Shown: one piece after another, positions 19,711 through 26,512 of the stretch
Position numbering within the stretch: the stretch's first letter is position 1
How the letters are laid out: the number at the start of each line of letters is the position of its first letter
NCBI GenBank assembly: GCA_035512495.1
Contig: DATKDW010000082.1
Span: 1-47,127 of the forward strand
Origin: Acidimicrobiales bacterium
GTDB lineage: Bacteria > Actinomycetota > Acidimicrobiia > Acidimicrobiales > CADCSY01
Length of the DNA stretch: 47,127 nt
Direction: 5' to 3'
Program-made: the position numbers and the translations under genes
Notes under the pieces: generated by a model
Told to the model about the DNA's origin: nothing
The model's input: the letters and a program-made list of their open reading frames with translations, nothing else
Database searches by the model: none

Positions 19711-20500
19711 ATGGTCGAGGTGCCGCCGGGGCTGAAGGGCCTGCTCGTCACCGACACCGAGGTCGGCGATGTCCGGGGACCTCTTGAGGTTGCGGCAAGG
19801 TGAGGAGCCCGTGGCCGTTCGCCCCGAGCTGGGTCACGCCGCCCACCTCCTCCACCAGCACCTGGGGGAGGTCCCCGACCCGGACGTTGCAAGGGCCCTC
19901 GAGCAGTACCTGATCACCACCATCGACCACGGGTTCAACGCGTCGACCTTCACCGCCCGGGTGATCGCCTCCACCGGTGCCGACCTGGGCTCAGCCGTCG
20001 TCGGCGCCCTCGGCGCCCTCTCTGGTCCGCGTCACGGCGGCGCCCCGAGCCGTGCGCTCGACGCGCTCGACGCCATCGGTGAGCCCGGTGCTGCCGCCGC
20101 CTGGGTGCGTGCCACCGTCGGCCATGGGGAGCGGATCATGGGCTTCGGCCACTCCGTCTACCGGGGCCCCGACCCACGGGCCGTGCTGCTGCGGGAGGTC
20201 GCCCTGCGCCTCGGAGGCCGGCTCGTCGACCTGGCCGTGGCGGTCGAGCCGATCATCACCCGCACCCTTGACGAGCTCCGGCCCGGGCAGCGCATCAGCA
20301 CCAACGTCGAGTTCTACGCCGGGGTGGTCATGGCCCGGTGCGGCCTGCCCCGAGAGGCGTTCACCACCACCTTCGCCGCCAGCCGGTCGATCGGGTGGTG
20401 CGCCAACGTCCTCGAGCAGGCACGCGACCCGCGGGTGATCCGGCCCAGCGCCCGGTACGTGGGGCCACCGGCGCCGCAGCCGGTGCCGCCCGGTCCGTGA
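19711..20500 (+). pseudogene. citA: Citrate synthase gene with large internal deletion and frameshift
   Basis: ATG 19711 opens with a typical citrate synthase N-terminus (MVEVPPGLKGLLVTDTEVGD), which is lost by frameshift after about 23 codons (stop at 19801). Another frame, open from ATG 19769, resumes at LLRLRQGEEPV and PELGHAAHLL and runs through DHGFNASTF, GPRHGGAP, IMGFGHSVYRGPDPRA, NVEFYAGVVMARCG and the usual C-terminus PSARYVGPPAPQPV. Relative to a roughly 375-residue enzyme about 110 residues are missing. Catalytic His of GHSVY and the HGG loop are present; Glu stands where many enzymes have the catalytic Asp (NVDFY). Activity is doubtful without the N-terminal helices. An assembly error is the other explanation. 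Confidence 0.7.
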
Positions 20501-20527
20501 GGCGGCGCCGCCATCGGTGGGCAGGGG

Positions 20528-20533
20528 TACGGT
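20528..20533 (+). promoter_or_regulatory. Probable -10 box for a leaderless acetyltransferase transcript
   Basis: TACGGT followed by 7 nt and ATG 20541; no ribosome-binding site. Confidence 0.4.
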
Positions 20534-20540
20534 CGGCACC

Positions 20541-20984
20541 ATGAGCGTCGTCGTGCAGGAAGCATCCGAGGTCACCTCGGCCGTGGTGGAGGCGTTCGAG
20601 CGCCTCGTGCCGCAGCTGTCGCGGACGTCCCCCCCGCCGGACCGCGCCGCGCTCGACGAGATGCTCGCCGCGCCGGGGACCATGGTCCTGTTGGCCCTCG
20701 ACAGCGACAGCGGCGACATCGTCGGGAGCCTCACGCTGGTGGTGTTTCGCATCCCGACGGGCATGCGGGCCTGGATCGAGGACGTGGTCGTCGATGAGGC
20801 CGCTCGTGGCCGCGGGGTGGGTGAGGCGCTGAACGAGGCCGCCCTCGACCGGGCGCGGCGCCTCGGAGCCCGCACCGTCGAGCTCACCAGCCGCCCCTCC
20901 CGCGAGGCTGCCAACGCCCTCTACCGCAAGCTCGGCTTCGTGCAGCGGGAGACCAACGTCTACCGGTACGAGCTAGAAGGCTGA
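20541..20984 (+). CDS. GNAT-family N-acetyltransferase
   Basis: 147 residues. The GNAT fold is recognisable from WIEDVVVDEAARGRGVGEAL (motif A, with the acetyl-CoA pyrophosphate loop RGRGVG) and from EAANALYRKLGFVQRETNVYRYEL (motif B). It transfers an acetyl group from acetyl-CoA to an amine; the substrate is unknown. The start at ATG 20541 is set by family length and the upstream -10 box. Confidence 0.88.
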   Translation: MSVVVQEASEVTSAVVEAFERLVPQLSRTSPPPDRAALDEMLAAPGTMVLLALDSDSGDIVGSLTLVVFRIPTGMRAWIEDVVVDEAARGRGVGEALNEAALDRARRLGARTVELTSRPSREAANALYRKLGFVQRETNVYRYELEG

Positions 20985-21245
20985 CTCTCCTCGGTCTATC
21001 GTCCTGACTCGCCGTCTGTACGCAACCACGCCTCCCTGGCGCAGGCGCATCGGCCCAGGTGGCCTTGCCTCGCCAGCCGCCCGATGGGTGGTGCGCGCAG
21101 ACATCCGGTGATCGACATCAGTCGTAGCCGATCATCTCCGACGCCGCAGACGCTCGCGGAGTTGAGGCGGATCAGAGGTGCTCCGCGTTGTGTTATGAGA
21201 CTTTCTCTCACCATCTATGAAGATTCACAGACGGCGACATAGAGT
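20985..21245. other. Intergenic region with lower GC before the AAA ATPase gene
   Basis: No convincing gene. Its last 60 bp are notably AT-rich for this window. They include TTGTGT (21188-21193) and TATGAA (21216-21221), possible promoter elements with a long spacer. The change in composition continues into the ATPase gene. Confidence 0.4.
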
Positions 21246-22445
21246 ATGATCGTGGACCCTGTCAGGAACCCCTACTCGCCTGGTGCGGGCACCCCGCCGC
21301 CATACCTGGCAGGACGGGACGACTTGATCGCTGCGTTCGACACACTCCTGGGACGGGCAACGATCGGCAACACGGTGCAGCCGCTCGTGCTCTCAGGTCT
21401 ACGAGGCGTCGGCAAGACCGTCCTCCTCCTCCAATGGAGGTCTCAGGCAGAGGCTGCCGGCTGGACCGCCAGTCACATCGAAGCGCGAGCGACCGTGGAC
21501 CTGCGTCACCAGCTCGGTGACGCAGTTGCCGATCTCCTTCGCCAGGTGAGCCGTCGCTACCGCAATGCCCAACGCGTCGAGCGACTGAAGCGGGTGGCTG
21601 CCTCGTTCATCCGGACGGCCGGTGCCTCGGTGTCGCGCGGAGGCATCACCCTCGACGTCGACCCAGAGCCTGGTGTTGCAGACTCCGGTGATTTGGAGAC
21701 CGACCTCACCGAGTTGCTCATCGAGCTCGGAACTGCGGCCAGGGAGGAGGGCGTCGGCGCGGTGATCCTGATCGACGAACTGCAAGACGCCGGATCCGAG
21801 CACCTCGCCGGTGTCGTCGGTGCGTGCCACCGCATCAACCAGGAGCGCCTTCCAGCGCTGGTCGTCGGAGCGGGCTTGCCCACCGTCGGGAAGGTCCTCT
21901 CGGACGCCAAGTCCTACGCTGAGCGCCTCTTCGACCTTCGCACCGTCGGTCCACTCGTCGGCGAGGCCCAGGACCTGGCCATCGTCGAGCCCGCCGAGGA
22001 CCTCGGTGTTGCCTTCGAAGCAGCCGCATTGGGAGCACTGCGTTCTCTGGCGGGCGGATACCCGTTCTTCATCCAGACACACGCGAAGTTCGTCTGGGAC
22101 GCGGCGATCGACAGTCCGATCGACGAAGCGGATGTCGCAGCGGCATCGCCGCTCGCCGAAGACCAGCTGCGTCGCTCGTTCTTCGGTCCGCGTTACGACA
22201 GGGCAACGCCAGCCGAAAGGCGATACATGCATGCCATGGCGGCACTCGGCGATGGCGGCGTGGCGACGGCCGACGTGGCGGCCAAGCTCGGTCGACGCCA
22301 ATCCGCTGTGTCCGTCCAGCGCGACGGTCTCCTGAACAAGGGGCTCGTCTACGCCCCCGAGCGCGGGCTCGTGGCGTTCACCGTGCCGCACATGTCCGCA
22401 CACCTTCGCTCGCTACCGACCCACGAGTTCACCGATGACTTCTAA
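21246..22445 (+). CDS. AAA ATPase with C-terminal winged-helix-like region
   Basis: 399 residues. The conserved start NPYSPGAGTPPPYLAGRDD precedes an AAA/STAND-like core: Walker A GLRGVGKT (about 51-58), Walker B VILIDELQDA (about 178-187), sensor-like LPALVVGAGLP, and SLAGGYPFFIQTHAKFVWD. The C-terminal part (VATADVAAKLGRRQSAVSVQRDGLLNKGLV) looks like a winged helix, as in Orc1/Cdc6-type ATPases. The family is widespread and largely uncharacterised. Codon use is less GC-rich at third positions than its neighbours and it has an AT-rich upstream region, so recent acquisition is plausible. No partner toxin, nuclease or protease is adjacent. Confidence 0.8.
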   Translation: MIVDPVRNPYSPGAGTPPPYLAGRDDLIAAFDTLLGRATIGNTVQPLVLSGLRGVGKTVLLLQWRSQAEAAGWTASHIEARATVDLRHQLGDAVADLLRQVSRRYRNAQRVERLKRVAASFIRTAGASVSRGGITLDVDPEPGVADSGDLETDLTELLIELGTAAREEGVGAVILIDELQDAGSEHLAGVVGACHRINQERLPALVVGAGLPTVGKVLSDAKSYAERLFDLRTVGPLVGEAQDLAIVEPAEDLGVAFEAAALGALRSLAGGYPFFIQTHAKFVWDAAIDSPIDEADVAAASPLAEDQLRRSFFGPRYDRATPAERRYMHAMAALGDGGVATADVAAKLGRRQSAVSVQRDGLLNKGLVYAPERGLVAFTVPHMSAHLRSLPTHEFTDDF

Positions 22446-22499
22446 GAACTCGTCGTACACGAACGTCTACCGCTTCACCCTCGGCTGACCTGGTCGCGG

Positions 22500-23240
22500 A
22501 TGGACCTCCTCCTGCTGTCGAACTCCACCAACCACGGCAGCACGATGTACTCGCACGCCCGTGACGAGATCGTCGAGCTGGTGGACGGCGACGCGGTGGT
22601 GTTCATCCCCTATGCCCTGGCCGACTGGGACGACTACGCCGACCGGGCCACCGCCGCGCTCGGCGGCTTCGGCGTCGACGTCGCATCGGCGCACCGGTCG
22701 GCTGATCCCGCCCGGGCCATCCTCGAGGCCCCGGTGGTGATGATGGGTGGTGGCAACACCTTCCGGTTGCTCGACACGCTCTACGGCCTCGGAGTGCTCG
22801 AGCGGCTCGGCCAACGGGTGCGAGAGGGAGCCACCCGCTACATGGGGGCGTCTGCGGGGACCAACGTGGCCTGTCCCACCATCCGCACCACGAACGACAT
22901 GCCGATCTGCATGCCCCCGAGCCTCGATGCGCTCGCACTGATCCCCTTCCAGATCAACCTCCACTACCTCGATGCCGAGCCCGACTCGACCTTCATGGGC
23001 GAGACCCGTGCCGAGCGCATCGAGGAGTTCCTGGAGGAGAACGACTGCCCGGTGGTCGCGATGTACGAGGGCTCGTTCCTCCGCGTGTCCGGTGACGCCG
23101 CCGTGGTGACCGGTCGCTCCCGGCTCTTCGAACGGGCGAGCCACCAGGCGTTCGACGAGCAGCTCGATGCCTCCCCGCTGCTGCGGGCCACACCCCGCTT
23201 CGACGCCGGGAGGCGCCCAAGGGGCGGAACCACGGGTTGA
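22500..23240 (+). CDS. pepE: Peptidase E (alpha-aspartyl dipeptidase, family S51)
   Basis: 246 residues. Ser118 in GASAGTN, Asp133 in TNDMP and His155 in INLHYLD line up with the Ser120-Asp135-His157 triad of Salmonella PepE at the same spacing. GGGNTFRLLDTL and PPSLDALALIPFQINLHY are further family landmarks. The enzyme cleaves dipeptides with N-terminal aspartate in the cytosol. It is followed at about 110 bp by the DgcN-like gene and racemase gene in the same direction, suggesting a role in scavenging peptides or D-amino-acid compounds. Confidence 0.92.
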   Translation: MDLLLLSNSTNHGSTMYSHARDEIVELVDGDAVVFIPYALADWDDYADRATAALGGFGVDVASAHRSADPARAILEAPVVMMGGGNTFRLLDTLYGLGVLERLGQRVREGATRYMGASAGTNVACPTIRTTNDMPICMPPSLDALALIPFQINLHYLDAEPDSTFMGETRAERIEEFLEENDCPVVAMYEGSFLRVSGDAAVVTGRSRLFERASHQAFDEQLDASPLLRATPRFDAGRRPRGGTTG

Positions 23241-23244
23241 GCGG

Positions 23245-23250
23245 TAAACT
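23245..23250 (+). promoter_or_regulatory. Candidate -10 box for the dgcN-racemase operon
   Basis: TAAACT lies immediately after the pepE stop and would start a transcript with a leader of about 95 nt. Confidence 0.35.
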
Positions 23251-23256
23251 CGGCCG

Positions 23257-23352
23257 CTCACCCTTGCTTAGCGGGGACCTCTTCTCTTCGCTCCGGTCGT
23301 CGTTGACCGAGCCATCTGGTCGCCTCCTCTGAGTCCAGCTCTGAGGAGCCCC
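23257..23352 (+). promoter_or_regulatory. Structured leader that can sequester the dgcN ribosome-binding site
   Basis: CTCCTC (23324-23329) can pair with GAGGAG (23343-23348), which is the Shine-Dalgarno sequence 4 nt before ATG 23353. Upstream, GACC (23305-23308) can pair with GGTC at 23295-23298 or with GGTC at 23318-23321, so alternative folds exist. A TTG-initiated frame of 22 codons (23264-23332) runs through it. No known riboswitch class was recognised. Confidence 0.4.
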
Positions 23353-24492
23353 ATGTTCGTGCCCTCCGCACCCCTTCCCGTCGTCGCGCCCGCCCGTGCG
23401 TTGCCGGCCCGTCCGACCGCCGTCGTCTACTGCGAGGCGAACTTCGGCGCAGGCGATGGCAAGACGGCCAACGGGCTGGTCCGGCACTCCGAGCGCTACG
23501 AGATCGTGGCGGTCATCGACAGCTGGCAGGCAGGCCTCGACGCCGGCGAGGTCCTCGACGGCGAGGTGAGCTCGATCCCCATCGTGCGCGACCTGGCCGG
23601 CGCGATCTCGCTCGTGGGTGGCACCCCCGACGTCTTCATCTTCGGGGTGGCGCCGTCGAGCGGCATGCTCTCCGCGCCGGAGCGCCTCGTCATGCTCGAC
23701 GCCATCGGTCGCGGGATGCACCTGGTCAACGGCCTCCATGAGTTCCTGAACGACGACCCGGAGTTCGCCGCCGCAGCCGCCGCGAACGGCGTGACGATCC
23801 TCGACGTGCGCCGGCCGCGCGACAAGAAGGATCTGCGCCTGTTCAGCGGGCGCATCGCCGAGGTCACCTGCCCTCGCATCGCCGTGCTCGGCACCGACAG
23901 CGCCATCGGCAAGCGCACGACGGCCACGCTCCTCACCCAGGCGCTCAACGAGCGTGGCATCAGGGCGGTCATGGTCGGCACCGGCCAGACCGGCCTCATC
24001 CAGGGTGCGCGCTACGGCGTGGCACTCGACGCCATCCCGTGCCAGTTCTGCTCGGGCGAGATGGAGGCGACGGTGGTGGAGGCATTCGAGGGCGAACACC
24101 CCGATGTGATCGTCATCGAGGGTCAGGGCGCGCTCAGCCACCCTGCCTACCTCTCGTCGAGCTTCATCCTGCGGGGCAGCCAACCCCATGCCGTGGTCCT
24201 CCAGCACGCGCCGGCCCGGCGCACGCTCGGTGACTTCCCCGGCGTGGCGATGCCGACCCCGGCGAGCGAGATCAACCTGATCCAGACCTTCGCCGACACG
24301 CGGGTCATCGGCCTCACGATCAACCACGAGGACATGACCGACGCCGAGGTGACTGCCGCCATCATCGGCTACGAAGCCGAGCTCGGGATCCCAGCGACCG
24401 ACGCCCTCACCCGATCGCCGGACCGCTTGGTCGACATGGTGCTCGGCGCCTTCCCCCAGCTCGAGGTGAAGCTGGTCGCGGCAACCTCGTGA
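23353..24492 (+). CDS. DUF1611 protein, DgcN-like (putative D-glutamate N-acetyltransferase)
   Basis: 379 residues. An N-terminal Rossmann-like domain (AVVYCEANFGAGDGKTANGLVR, VFIFGVAPSSG) is followed by a P-loop-containing domain with GTDSAIGKRTTA (about 180-190), IRAVMVGTGQTG, DVIVIEGQGALSHPAY and ITINHE-like LTINHEDM. This is the DUF1611 family. A marine member, DgcN, acetylates D-glutamate in a D-Glu degradation pathway together with the racemase DgcA; that comes from family knowledge. Here the partner encoded 4 bp overlapping downstream is a PLP-type racemase, not an enolase-type one. Substrate and acyl donor in this organism are inference. Confidence 0.8.
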   Translation: MFVPSAPLPVVAPARALPARPTAVVYCEANFGAGDGKTANGLVRHSERYEIVAVIDSWQAGLDAGEVLDGEVSSIPIVRDLAGAISLVGGTPDVFIFGVAPSSGMLSAPERLVMLDAIGRGMHLVNGLHEFLNDDPEFAAAAAANGVTILDVRRPRDKKDLRLFSGRIAEVTCPRIAVLGTDSAIGKRTTATLLTQALNERGIRAVMVGTGQTGLIQGARYGVALDAIPCQFCSGEMEATVVEAFEGEHPDVIVIEGQGALSHPAYLSSSFILRGSQPHAVVLQHAPARRTLGDFPGVAMPTPASEINLIQTFADTRVIGLTINHEDMTDAEVTAAIIGYEAELGIPATDALTRSPDRLVDMVLGAFPQLEVKLVAATS

Positions 24493-25607
24493 GCGGTCCG
24501 AGACTGGAGCTGCGCCTCGACCGGATCCGCCACAACGCCGCGACCCTCGTCTCCCGCCTCGCCGCCCGCAAGATCGCCGTCACCGGCGTCACCAAGGTGA
24601 CGCTGGGGTCGGCCGAGGTCGCCCGGGAGCTCCTCCAGGCCGGTGTCCGCTCGCTCGGGGAGTCCCGGATCGAGAACGTCGAGACCCTGCGCCACGCTGG
24701 GATCACCGCCCCCATGACCTTGATCCGCTCGCCGATGCTGAGCCAGGTCGACCGGGTGGTCGAGCACGTCGAGGTCAGCCTCAACAGTGAGCTCACCGTG
24801 CTGGCGGCCCTCTCGGCGGCGGCCGGCGCCCAGGGCAAGCGACACGGCGTCGTCCTCATGGTGGAGCTCGGCGACCTCCGGGAGGGCATCCTGCCGGGGG
24901 ACGTCGCGGCGACCGTCCGGGAGACCCTCCGCCTCCCCTCCATCGACCTCGTCGGCATCGGCACCAACCTGGCCTGCCAGAGCGGCGTGACGCCCGATGC
25001 CCGCAACATGGCTGAGCTGTCGTCGCTGGCGACCTCGCTCGAGTCGACCTTCGGGGTGAGCTTCGACGTGGTATCAGGCGGGAACTCGGCCAACCTGGAC
25101 TGGGCCCTCGGGTCTGGCGACGTCGGTCTCGTCAACGACCTCCGCCTCGGTGAAGCAATCCTCCTCGGGCGCGAGACCCTTCGCCGGCGTCCGGTCGATG
25201 GCCTCCACACCGACGCCATCACCTTGGTCGCCGAGGTGATCGAGGCCAAGGTGAAGCCGACGCAGCCTTGGGGCGAGATCAACCAGGCCGCCTTCGGCGC
25301 CTCCACCGCCGTGGTCGACCGGGGCACCATCTCCCAGGCCATCGTGGCCCTCGGCCGGCAGGATGTCGATCCCGCCGGGCTCGGAGCGCCCCCGGGGATG
25401 GCGGTCCTCGGTGCCAGCAGCGACCACCTCGTGCTGGACACTGGGGCGACCACCCTCCCCGTCGGGTCGGAGGTGCGCTTCGCGGTCGACTACAGCGCCC
25501 TCCTCGCGGCCATGACCTCGCCGTTCGTCGGCCGGGTCTTCACCCGGGGCGATGAGCCGGGGGATGGGCCGAGCCCCGCGGTGTTCGACCGCGCCGGCGC
25601 CCCCTGA
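24489..25607 (+). CDS. Alanine-racemase-fold (type III) PLP amino-acid racemase, Orr-like
   Basis: 372 residues. The N-terminal TIM-barrel of the alanine racemase family has Lys36 in VTGVTKVTLG, the expected PLP Schiff-base lysine. LGESRIENV, LMVELGDLREGI, VGIGTNLACQSG, VVSGGNSANLDW and NDLRLGEAILLGRE match the ornithine racemase/YhfX-like subgroup rather than housekeeping Alr, and a C-terminal beta domain follows. It probably interconverts D- and L-forms of an amino acid or N-acylated amino acid produced by the upstream enzyme. The GTG start overlaps the dgcN-like stop (GTGA), so the two are translationally coupled. Confidence 0.82.
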   Translation: MSGPRLELRLDRIRHNAATLVSRLAARKIAVTGVTKVTLGSAEVARELLQAGVRSLGESRIENVETLRHAGITAPMTLIRSPMLSQVDRVVEHVEVSLNSELTVLAALSAAAGAQGKRHGVVLMVELGDLREGILPGDVAATVRETLRLPSIDLVGIGTNLACQSGVTPDARNMAELSSLATSLESTFGVSFDVVSGGNSANLDWALGSGDVGLVNDLRLGEAILLGRETLRRRPVDGLHTDAITLVAEVIEAKVKPTQPWGEINQAAFGASTAVVDRGTISQAIVALGRQDVDPAGLGAPPGMAVLGASSDHLVLDTGATTLPVGSEVRFAVDYSALLAAMTSPFVGRVFTRGDEPGDGPSPAVFDRAGAP

Positions 25608-25616
25608 CGCCGTCGC

Positions 25617-26342
25617 TCACTCCGAGTCGACGAGGCTGCGTTGCTCCACGATGCGCTGGGCGACCTCTCGGAGCTTGATGTTCTCTCGCTGCGAGGCCTG
25701 GCGCAGCAGATCGAAGGCATCGTCGGCTGTCCTGCCCGGTGAGGCGGCCATCAAGATGCCCTTGGCCTGTTCGATGACCGCCCGGCTCGCCATGGCCTCG
25801 GTCAGCTGCTCGCCCAGCTCGAGGGCGTCCCAGTAGGCGACGGCGTTGGCCAGCACGGCGGCTGCGGCGACGGCGAGGTCCACCCCGAGTGCCTCGTCGT
25901 CGTCGGAGAACCCGTGGCGGCGGCCGGAGTAGAGGTTCATGGCGCCGAGGGCCCTGCCGGCCGCGACCAGCGGCAGCGACAGGGTGCTGTGGACACCGTG
26001 GCCGGCGCAGGTGGCGGAGAACTCGGGGTAGGCGCCGCCGTCACCGGCGGCGATGTCGTCGAGCCTGACGACCCGGTCGTGCCGCCAGGCGTCGAGGCAG
26101 GGGCCGCGCCCGCTGTCGTACTGGCTCTGGTCGATGTCGGGGGACTCCTGGTCGGTGAAGACCTCAGTGGTCGGCTGCCCCTTGTCGTCGAGCATGGTGA
26201 AGCCGGCGAACTCGGCGCCCGGCAGGGCCGCCACGGTGATCTCGGCCACCCGTCGGAGGCTGTCGCCGAGCGAGGCCTCCGCCACCAGGAAGGTCGATAG
26301 GGATCGCAGGGCCTCGGCGAGGGCGTCGTCCTTGGTGCTCAT
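25617..26342 (-). CDS. GAF-ANTAR RNA-binding antiterminator
   Basis: 241 residues. A GAF sensor domain (about 25-165: GFTMLDDKGQPT, SGRGPCLDAWRHDRVVRLDDI, VHSTLSLPLVAAGRALGAMNLYS) is joined to an ANTAR domain (about 180-235: SRAVIEQAKGILMA, DDAFDLLRQASQRENIKLREVAQRIVEQ). ANTAR proteins bind paired small hairpins in nascent RNA and prevent termination. The GAF domain probably senses a small molecule. The gene is divergent from the DapA-like/OYE pair, whose leader is highly structured, making that operon a candidate target. ATG 26342 has GAAGG 5 nt upstream. Confidence 0.9.
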   Translation of the reverse strand: MSTKDDALAEALRSLSTFLVAEASLGDSLRRVAEITVAALPGAEFAGFTMLDDKGQPTTEVFTDQESPDIDQSQYDSGRGPCLDAWRHDRVVRLDDIAAGDGGAYPEFSATCAGHGVHSTLSLPLVAAGRALGAMNLYSGRRHGFSDDDEALGVDLAVAAAAVLANAVAYWDALELGEQLTEAMASRAVIEQAKGILMAASPGRTADDAFDLLRQASQRENIKLREVAQRIVEQRSLVDSE

Positions 26343-26417
26343 CACGGCCTTCAACGTCGTTGGAGACGGTGGCCCTGTGTGGTCAAGGAGGAACGTCTGC
26401 ACCCACCTTACTGGTGT

Positions 26418-26512
26418 GACGTCGCAGTTCAGGACGTCTGGGCCGCCCCGCCGGACGTCCTGCGGCGGGGGCCGTTCCGTCGAACTGCGAGACTTGGCCT
26501 GCCGTCGACGTC
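26418..26512 (+). promoter_or_regulatory. Structured leader with interleaved helices and four GACGTC sites
   Basis: Outer arms TCGCAGTTC (26422-26430) and GAACTGCGA (26482-26490) are perfect 9-bp complements. Inside, AGGACGTC (26431-26438) pairs with GACGTCCT (26454-26461), and CCCCGCCG (26446-26453) pairs with CGGCGGGG (26463-26470). These two helices interleave and cannot easily coexist. GACGTC occurs at 26418, 26433, 26454 and 26507. The region could be an RNA switch acted on by the adjacent ANTAR protein, or DNA operators, or both. Confidence 0.5.

Follow-up and report, generated by a model that had tools for sequence, protein, structure and literature searches.

Gene organization at the locus

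The window analyzed here is a 47,127-nucleotide stretch of DNA from an Acidimicrobiales bacterium (GenBank assembly GCA_035512495.1, contig DATKDW010000082.1, positions 1 to 47,127 of the forward strand). It contains three genes encoding, in order, peptidase E (PepE), a DUF1611 protein homologous to DgcN, and a racemase of the pyridoxal 5′-phosphate (PLP)-dependent type (Table 1). All three are present on the forward strand, at the coordinates given in a preliminary description made from the DNA letters. The gap between PepE and the DUF1611 gene is 112 base pairs (bp), and the DUF1611 gene, the single match to this family in the window's genome, runs into the racemase gene through a GTGA overlap. 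This overlap is consistent with translational coupling, which probably operates between the two genes. Scans of window positions 20400–26500 for promoters and terminators found none, so the operon structure rests on the gene overlap.

Table 1. Features of the window and of related loci. Unprefixed coordinates are those of the window; those prefixed with an L number belong to other loci of the survey.
Feature	Coordinates	Strand	Length	Family match or remark
Peptidase E (alpha-aspartyl dipeptidase, MEROPS S51)	22500..23240	+	246 amino acids	PF03575, NCBIfam PepE
DUF1611 protein, DgcN homologue	23353..24492	+	379 amino acids	PF07755, PF17396; Rossmann-like N-terminal domain, P-loop C-terminal domain
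Fold-type III PLP racemase, ornithine-racemase-like	24489..25607	+	372 amino acids	PF01168; GTG start
GTGA junction	24489..24492	+	4 bp	racemase start GTG overlaps DUF1611 stop TGA
AAA ATPase gene	21246-22445			PF13191
GAF-ANTAR regulator gene	25617-26402	-
Citrate synthase-like open reading frame	19769-20500			C-terminal part of family only
Racemase-arginase fusion	L177:9438-11450
Secreted protein up1	L162:8853-9692
Sigma-54 activator	L087:4111-5745
Sigma-54 activator	L101:9389-11032
Sigma-54 activator	L112:2367-4001

Conservation of the DUF1611-racemase pair

We searched GTDB genomes with a racemase alignment (five paired sequences and one unpaired); the scan returned at least 577 relatives, of which the best 80 were examined. 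A DUF1611 gene was located directly upstream of the racemase in all 78 of the 78 loci with upstream sequence, while the remaining two loci start at a contig end. The DUF1611 proteins of these best 80 loci are 60–79% identical to that of the window. Where the junction between the two genes was measured (n = 82), they overlap by 4 bp in 61 cases and by 1 bp in 19. The adjacency of DUF1611 and racemase is far beyond chance. The preliminary description would have been refuted by a lack of conservation of the pair in other genomes; this is decisively not the case, which supports the coupling of the two genes.

According to the DUF1611 tree, pairs occur in Actinomycetota, Pseudomonadota, Planctomycetota, Acidobacteriota, Gemmatimonadota, Nitrospirota, Thermodesulfobacteriota, Myxococcota, Kiritimatiellota, Verrucomicrobiota, Lentisphaerota and Krumholzibacteriota. 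These phyla are partly intermixed in the tree, which suggests lateral transfer. Within individual groups the pair is sporadic: it was present in 4 of 198 genomes sampled from the window's phylum, counting the window's own genome, and in about 5 of 274 from the class around G250, a Sedimenticola. The paired racemases (48 rows) form one clade in a quick tree, with a support of 99 in the Shimodaira–Hasegawa-like approximate likelihood ratio test (SH-aLRT). Several racemases of 40–50% identity have no DUF1611 gene in the stretch examined, and identities down to 43–50% occur among paired ones; because these ranges overlap, pairing follows the clade and not the level of identity. Our literature search found no paper on the DUF1611-PLP racemase pair, and annotated plasmid records name both proteins by family only (‘DUF1611 domain-containing protein’, and ‘alanine/ornithine racemase family’ or ‘alanine racemase’).

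Two exclusive DUF1611 systems

Comparison with the other DUF1611 loci of the window's phylum (n = 30) revealed two types that exclude one another. An enolase-type DgcA-like gene without a PLP racemase is found in 26 of them, whereas the other four, like the window, have a PLP racemase and no enolase; no locus has both or neither. The DUF1611 proteins of the PLP type are 63–83% identical to that of the window and those of the enolase type 30–38%. No enolase-type DgcA was detected beside DUF1611 in the pair loci. Elsewhere in five pair genomes, enolase matches were weak and distant in four and absent in one, and the best match in the window's genome scored 34 bits and is located on another contig. 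A branch with an SH-aLRT support of 99 separates all 83 PLP-type DUF1611 proteins from the rest. The attachment of Thermotoga maritima TM0796 and of DgcN (7xrj) in this tree is uncertain because their branches are long.

The window's DUF1611 protein matches PF07755 (228.7 bits) and PF17396 (84.1 bits). Its score against the NCBIfam DgcN model (NF041892) is 165.3 bits, far under the cut-off of 480; for this reason ‘DgcN-like’, the label chosen in the preliminary description, is right for this homologue and ‘DgcN’ would be wrong. The AlphaFold model, with a mean predicted local distance difference test score (pLDDT) of 92.0, aligns best with 2obn (Z 41.4, root-mean-square deviation 1.8 over 336) and 2g0t (Z 38.9), and shares the two-domain fold of DgcN itself (7xrj; Z 33.4, root-mean-square deviation 3.6 over 322 residues). 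The next structural matches are P-loop ATPases and synthetases with Z values of about 14. For background on DgcN we relied on two earlier papers (PMC12363236; PMC10845958).

A common core is retained in the PLP type, the enolase type and the three solved DUF1611 structures, and includes the P-loop residues Gly186-Lys187, the TGQT motif, Asp226, Glu238, the EGQG motif and His263. The PLP type also departs from DgcN at residues that all other examined DUF1611 proteins conserve; among the positions fixed differently are Gln231, where the enolase type, DgcN, 2obn and 2g0t have Asp, as well as Arg274 and Gln284.

An ornithine-racemase-like partner

The racemase matches PF01168 (Ala_racemase_N, 99.6 bits) and, over its full length, the NCBIfam ornithine racemase model Orr (NF040742). 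The latter score, 341.4 bits, is below the cut-off of 480, as are those of racemases inside clear ornithine clusters (404 and 386 bits). In the structural comparison the AlphaFold model (pLDDT 93.7) matched alanine racemases with Z values of about 29–30, tied with D-threonine aldolases and related fold III enzymes. Lys36, the PLP lysine, is invariant among the homologues.

The nearest unpaired relatives offer clues to the substrate. One of them (L176) adjoins OraE, OrtB and Ord, which are D-ornithine fermentation genes. In another (L177) an ornithine-racemase-like domain (Orr 404 bits) shares one fused protein with an arginase domain (181 bits), and the fusion gene adjoins a GlmL-related ornithine degradation gene. 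Judged by its sequence, the racemase of the window is a member of the ornithine-racemase family, and the Orr match, the tree and the neighbors of the unpaired relatives bear out the earlier designation of an ornithine-racemase-like PLP enzyme. Near the pair itself, a divergent ornithine cyclodeaminase gene is found in Sedimenticola (L139/L182), and an ArgZ-like domain protein is encoded 99 bp downstream in a Geobacteraceae metagenome-assembled genome (L110).

Neighbors of the pair

PepE is readily identified. The protein matches PF03575 (162.5 bits), passes the NCBIfam equivalog NF003642 with 260.2 bits against a cut-off of 156, and its Ser118, Asp133 and His155 align with Ser120, Asp135 and His157 of S. 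Typhimurium PepE (1fy2). Among the loci examined, PepE precedes the pair in four further Acidimicrobiia-type loci (L067, L111, L127 and L133), and in these and the window the gaps are short. In the large majority of examined loci no PepE was found near the pair, the Acidimicrobiia loci L076 and L138 included; since most pairs lack it, we rejected PepE as a core partner. PepE is a lineage-local, facultative and incidental neighbor. The Asp-specific dipeptidase of the preliminary description thus keeps its identity and its place ahead of the pair but is not part of the core unit.

The only neighbor that recurs often is M81, an MlrC-family metallopeptidase, which clustering detected close to the pair in 11 of 84 loci. 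In L081, L086 and L139 the start of the M81 gene and the stop of the racemase gene overlap by 4 bp, and in L137 an Amidohydro_3 protein takes the place of M81 with the same 4-bp overlap. A Pfam tally of 123 nearby open reading frames gave no dominant family.

The pair is also carried intact on plasmids of Vibrio, Phaeobacter, Aliiroseovarius and Ruegeria, where it is accompanied by varied combinations of GroES/GroEL, Hsp20, HflK/HflC and NhaA. For the marine plasmids L161, L162, L163 and L165 this suggests that the pair is part of a mobile stress-related island. On the Vibrio plasmids the racemase is followed by a GspS-beta-like lipoprotein. A secreted protein, up1, with repeated Cys units of the form ‘YGxGWxCxxGF’, occurs near the pair in unrelated lineages (L162, with similar genes in L087, L101, L123, L130, L137, L155, L165 and L168); the L087 copy had no NCBIfam match. 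In L168 the gene order is hflK, hflC, up1, DUF1611, racemase. As candidate core members, GroESL, HflKC and up1 were rejected, each of them recurring in a minority of loci. Closely related sigma-54 activators, 75–85% identical to the L101 copy, are encoded in the vicinity of the pair in loci of Acidobacteriota and Myxococcota (Table 1).

Within the window, the AAA ATPase gene stops 54 bp ahead of PepE, and the GAF-ANTAR regulator gene is convergent with the racemase gene, about 10 bp from its stop. The citrate synthase-like open reading frame covers Pfam positions 132–357, and the N-terminal part of the family is missing from it.

Proposed function and alternatives

DgcN acetylates D-glutamate, and the N-acetylated amino acid is then racemized by DgcA. 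PLP racemases work through an aldimine with the alpha-amine of the substrate, which has to be free. Because an N-acetylated alpha-amine cannot form this aldimine with PLP, we infer from established enzyme chemistry that the partner found here cannot carry out the step of DgcA; a simple exchange of DgcA for a PLP racemase is chemically unlikely.

Starting from the observed pairing, overlap, clade, predicted folds and core residues, we infer the substrate class, the acyl transfer by DUF1611, and the order and direction of the steps. The two genes form a strictly paired, overlapping and probably translationally coupled unit. We tentatively favor a two-enzyme module in which the substrate of the racemase is a free amino acid, probably resembling ornithine, one form of which is acylated by DUF1611. 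The racemase, with PLP on Lys36, would convert this free amino acid between its D and L forms, and ornithine or a similar basic amino acid is our best guess. DUF1611, a P-loop/Rossmann relative of DgcN, would acylate one of the two enantiomers at its amine, drawing the equilibrium in one direction. Since the PLP racemase needs a free alpha-amine, racemization would precede acylation or run apart from it. PepE in Acidimicrobiia, and M81 or the amidohydrolase elsewhere, may serve as optional hydrolases that feed or finish the pathway. Handling of D-amino acids by the pair is plausible. A bolder extension is a new type of pathway that makes or consumes an N-acyl D-amino acid, possibly an acylated compound resembling D-ornithine, by means of an ornithine-racemase-like enzyme and a re-purposed relative of DgcN. 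Such a pathway would have moved between phyla in part on mobile elements and would be linked to stress tolerance in marine bacteria; we regard this as speculative.

Several observations weigh against the ornithine-acylation module. Four positions of the paired racemases (L24, E126, W205 and L239) differ consistently from the ornithine set and might move specificity away from ornithine. The ornithine-type neighbors of the pair, found in only two loci, could be due to chance and are a hint only, and no ornithine degradation gene was found beside the window's pair. On the DUF1611 side, the changes at Gln231, Arg274 and Gln284 could signal a reaction other than acetylation, and in the structure comparison of the predicted model the P-loop domain also resembles ATP-using synthetases.

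The last two points lead to an alternative in which the PLP-partnered DUF1611 is an ATP-dependent synthetase-like enzyme, and not an acyltransferase, acting on the D or L product of the racemase. Its P-loop domain aligns with dethiobiotin synthetase, CTP synthetase, cobyrinic acid a,c-diamide synthase and cyclic 2,3-diphosphoglycerate synthetase (Z 13–14.5), and the clade-specific changes fall at conserved DUF1611 positions. However, such Z values are usual among P-loop folds, and the close characterized fold homologue 7xrj, with which the conserved core is shared, is titled an N-acetyltransferase; we therefore consider a synthetase unlikely. The preliminary description had named D-Glu or D-Asp as possible substrates. 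In its fullest form, DUF1611 would acetylate the acidic D-amino acid, the PLP enzyme would replace DgcA, and PepE would supply Asp from dipeptides. The DgcN homology of DUF1611, in fold and core residues, and the position of PepE in Acidimicrobiia agree with such a scheme, but against it stand the aldimine chemistry given above, the low DgcN score, the departure from DgcN at Gln231 and the many pairs without PepE. It is weakened further because the racemase is of the ornithine-racemase family, whose unpaired relatives adjoin OraE/OrtB/Ord or are fused to arginase, and we judge it quite unlikely.

A biosynthetic or protective role is unlikely. Here the racemase would turn an L-amino acid into its D form, which DUF1611 would cap, yielding an N-acyl-D-amino acid for stress tolerance (e.g. 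a solute or cell-envelope component). The GroES/GroEL, Hsp20, HflK/HflC or NhaA genes near the Vibrio, Phaeobacter and Ruegeria plasmid pairs, together with HflC and up1 beside pairs of other lineages, point in this direction. Yet stress genes accompany a minority of loci and are absent from the window, plasmid islands collect unrelated genes, and the M81, PepE and amidohydrolase neighbors suit catabolism better. Finally, the short gaps downstream of PepE in the five Acidimicrobiia-type loci would fit a dedicated dipeptide-degradation operon of three genes with PepE as an essential partner, but most pair loci, even two from Acidimicrobiia, have no PepE nearby, which makes this very improbable.

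The strict pairing and overlap across many phyla present a well-defined target, in which two proteins could be assigned a function together. The two proteins could also reveal how a family known from D-glutamate, that of DgcN, was adapted to another racemase chemistry.

Comparison with known systems

The PepE of the window corresponds to the known MEROPS S51 peptidase in its equivalog score and its aligned catalytic Ser, Asp and His, and differs in being sited beside the pair, an arrangement limited to some Acidimicrobiia. The racemase resembles Orr of the ornithine fermentation cluster over its full length (341 bits) and in its conserved residues, including Lys36; in the comparison with the ornithine set no more than four positions differed consistently. 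Unlike Orr, it scores below the model's cut-off, has no OraE, OrtB or Ord neighbors, and is coupled to DUF1611. The best fold matches of the DUF1611 protein, 2obn from Anabaena and 2g0t (TM0796) from T. maritima, are structures without an assigned function, and both keep Asp where the PLP-partnered clade has Gln231.

The closest parallel is DgcN-DgcA, of which the DUF1611-racemase pair is a new variant, with PepE incidental to it. The two systems share the DUF1611 fold, the P-loop and other core residues, and the arrangement of one DUF1611 gene beside one racemase gene. They differ in the partner, which is a PLP enzyme encoded downstream here and an enolase-type enzyme encoded upstream there. 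The window's DUF1611 also belongs to a separate clade, in which the conserved Asp is replaced by Gln231 and the DgcN score is 165 against 480. The proposed order of reactions would differ as well: in DgcN-DgcA acetylation comes first and is followed by enolase-type racemization of the N-acetyl amino acid, whereas in the pair described here racemization would act on the free amino acid.

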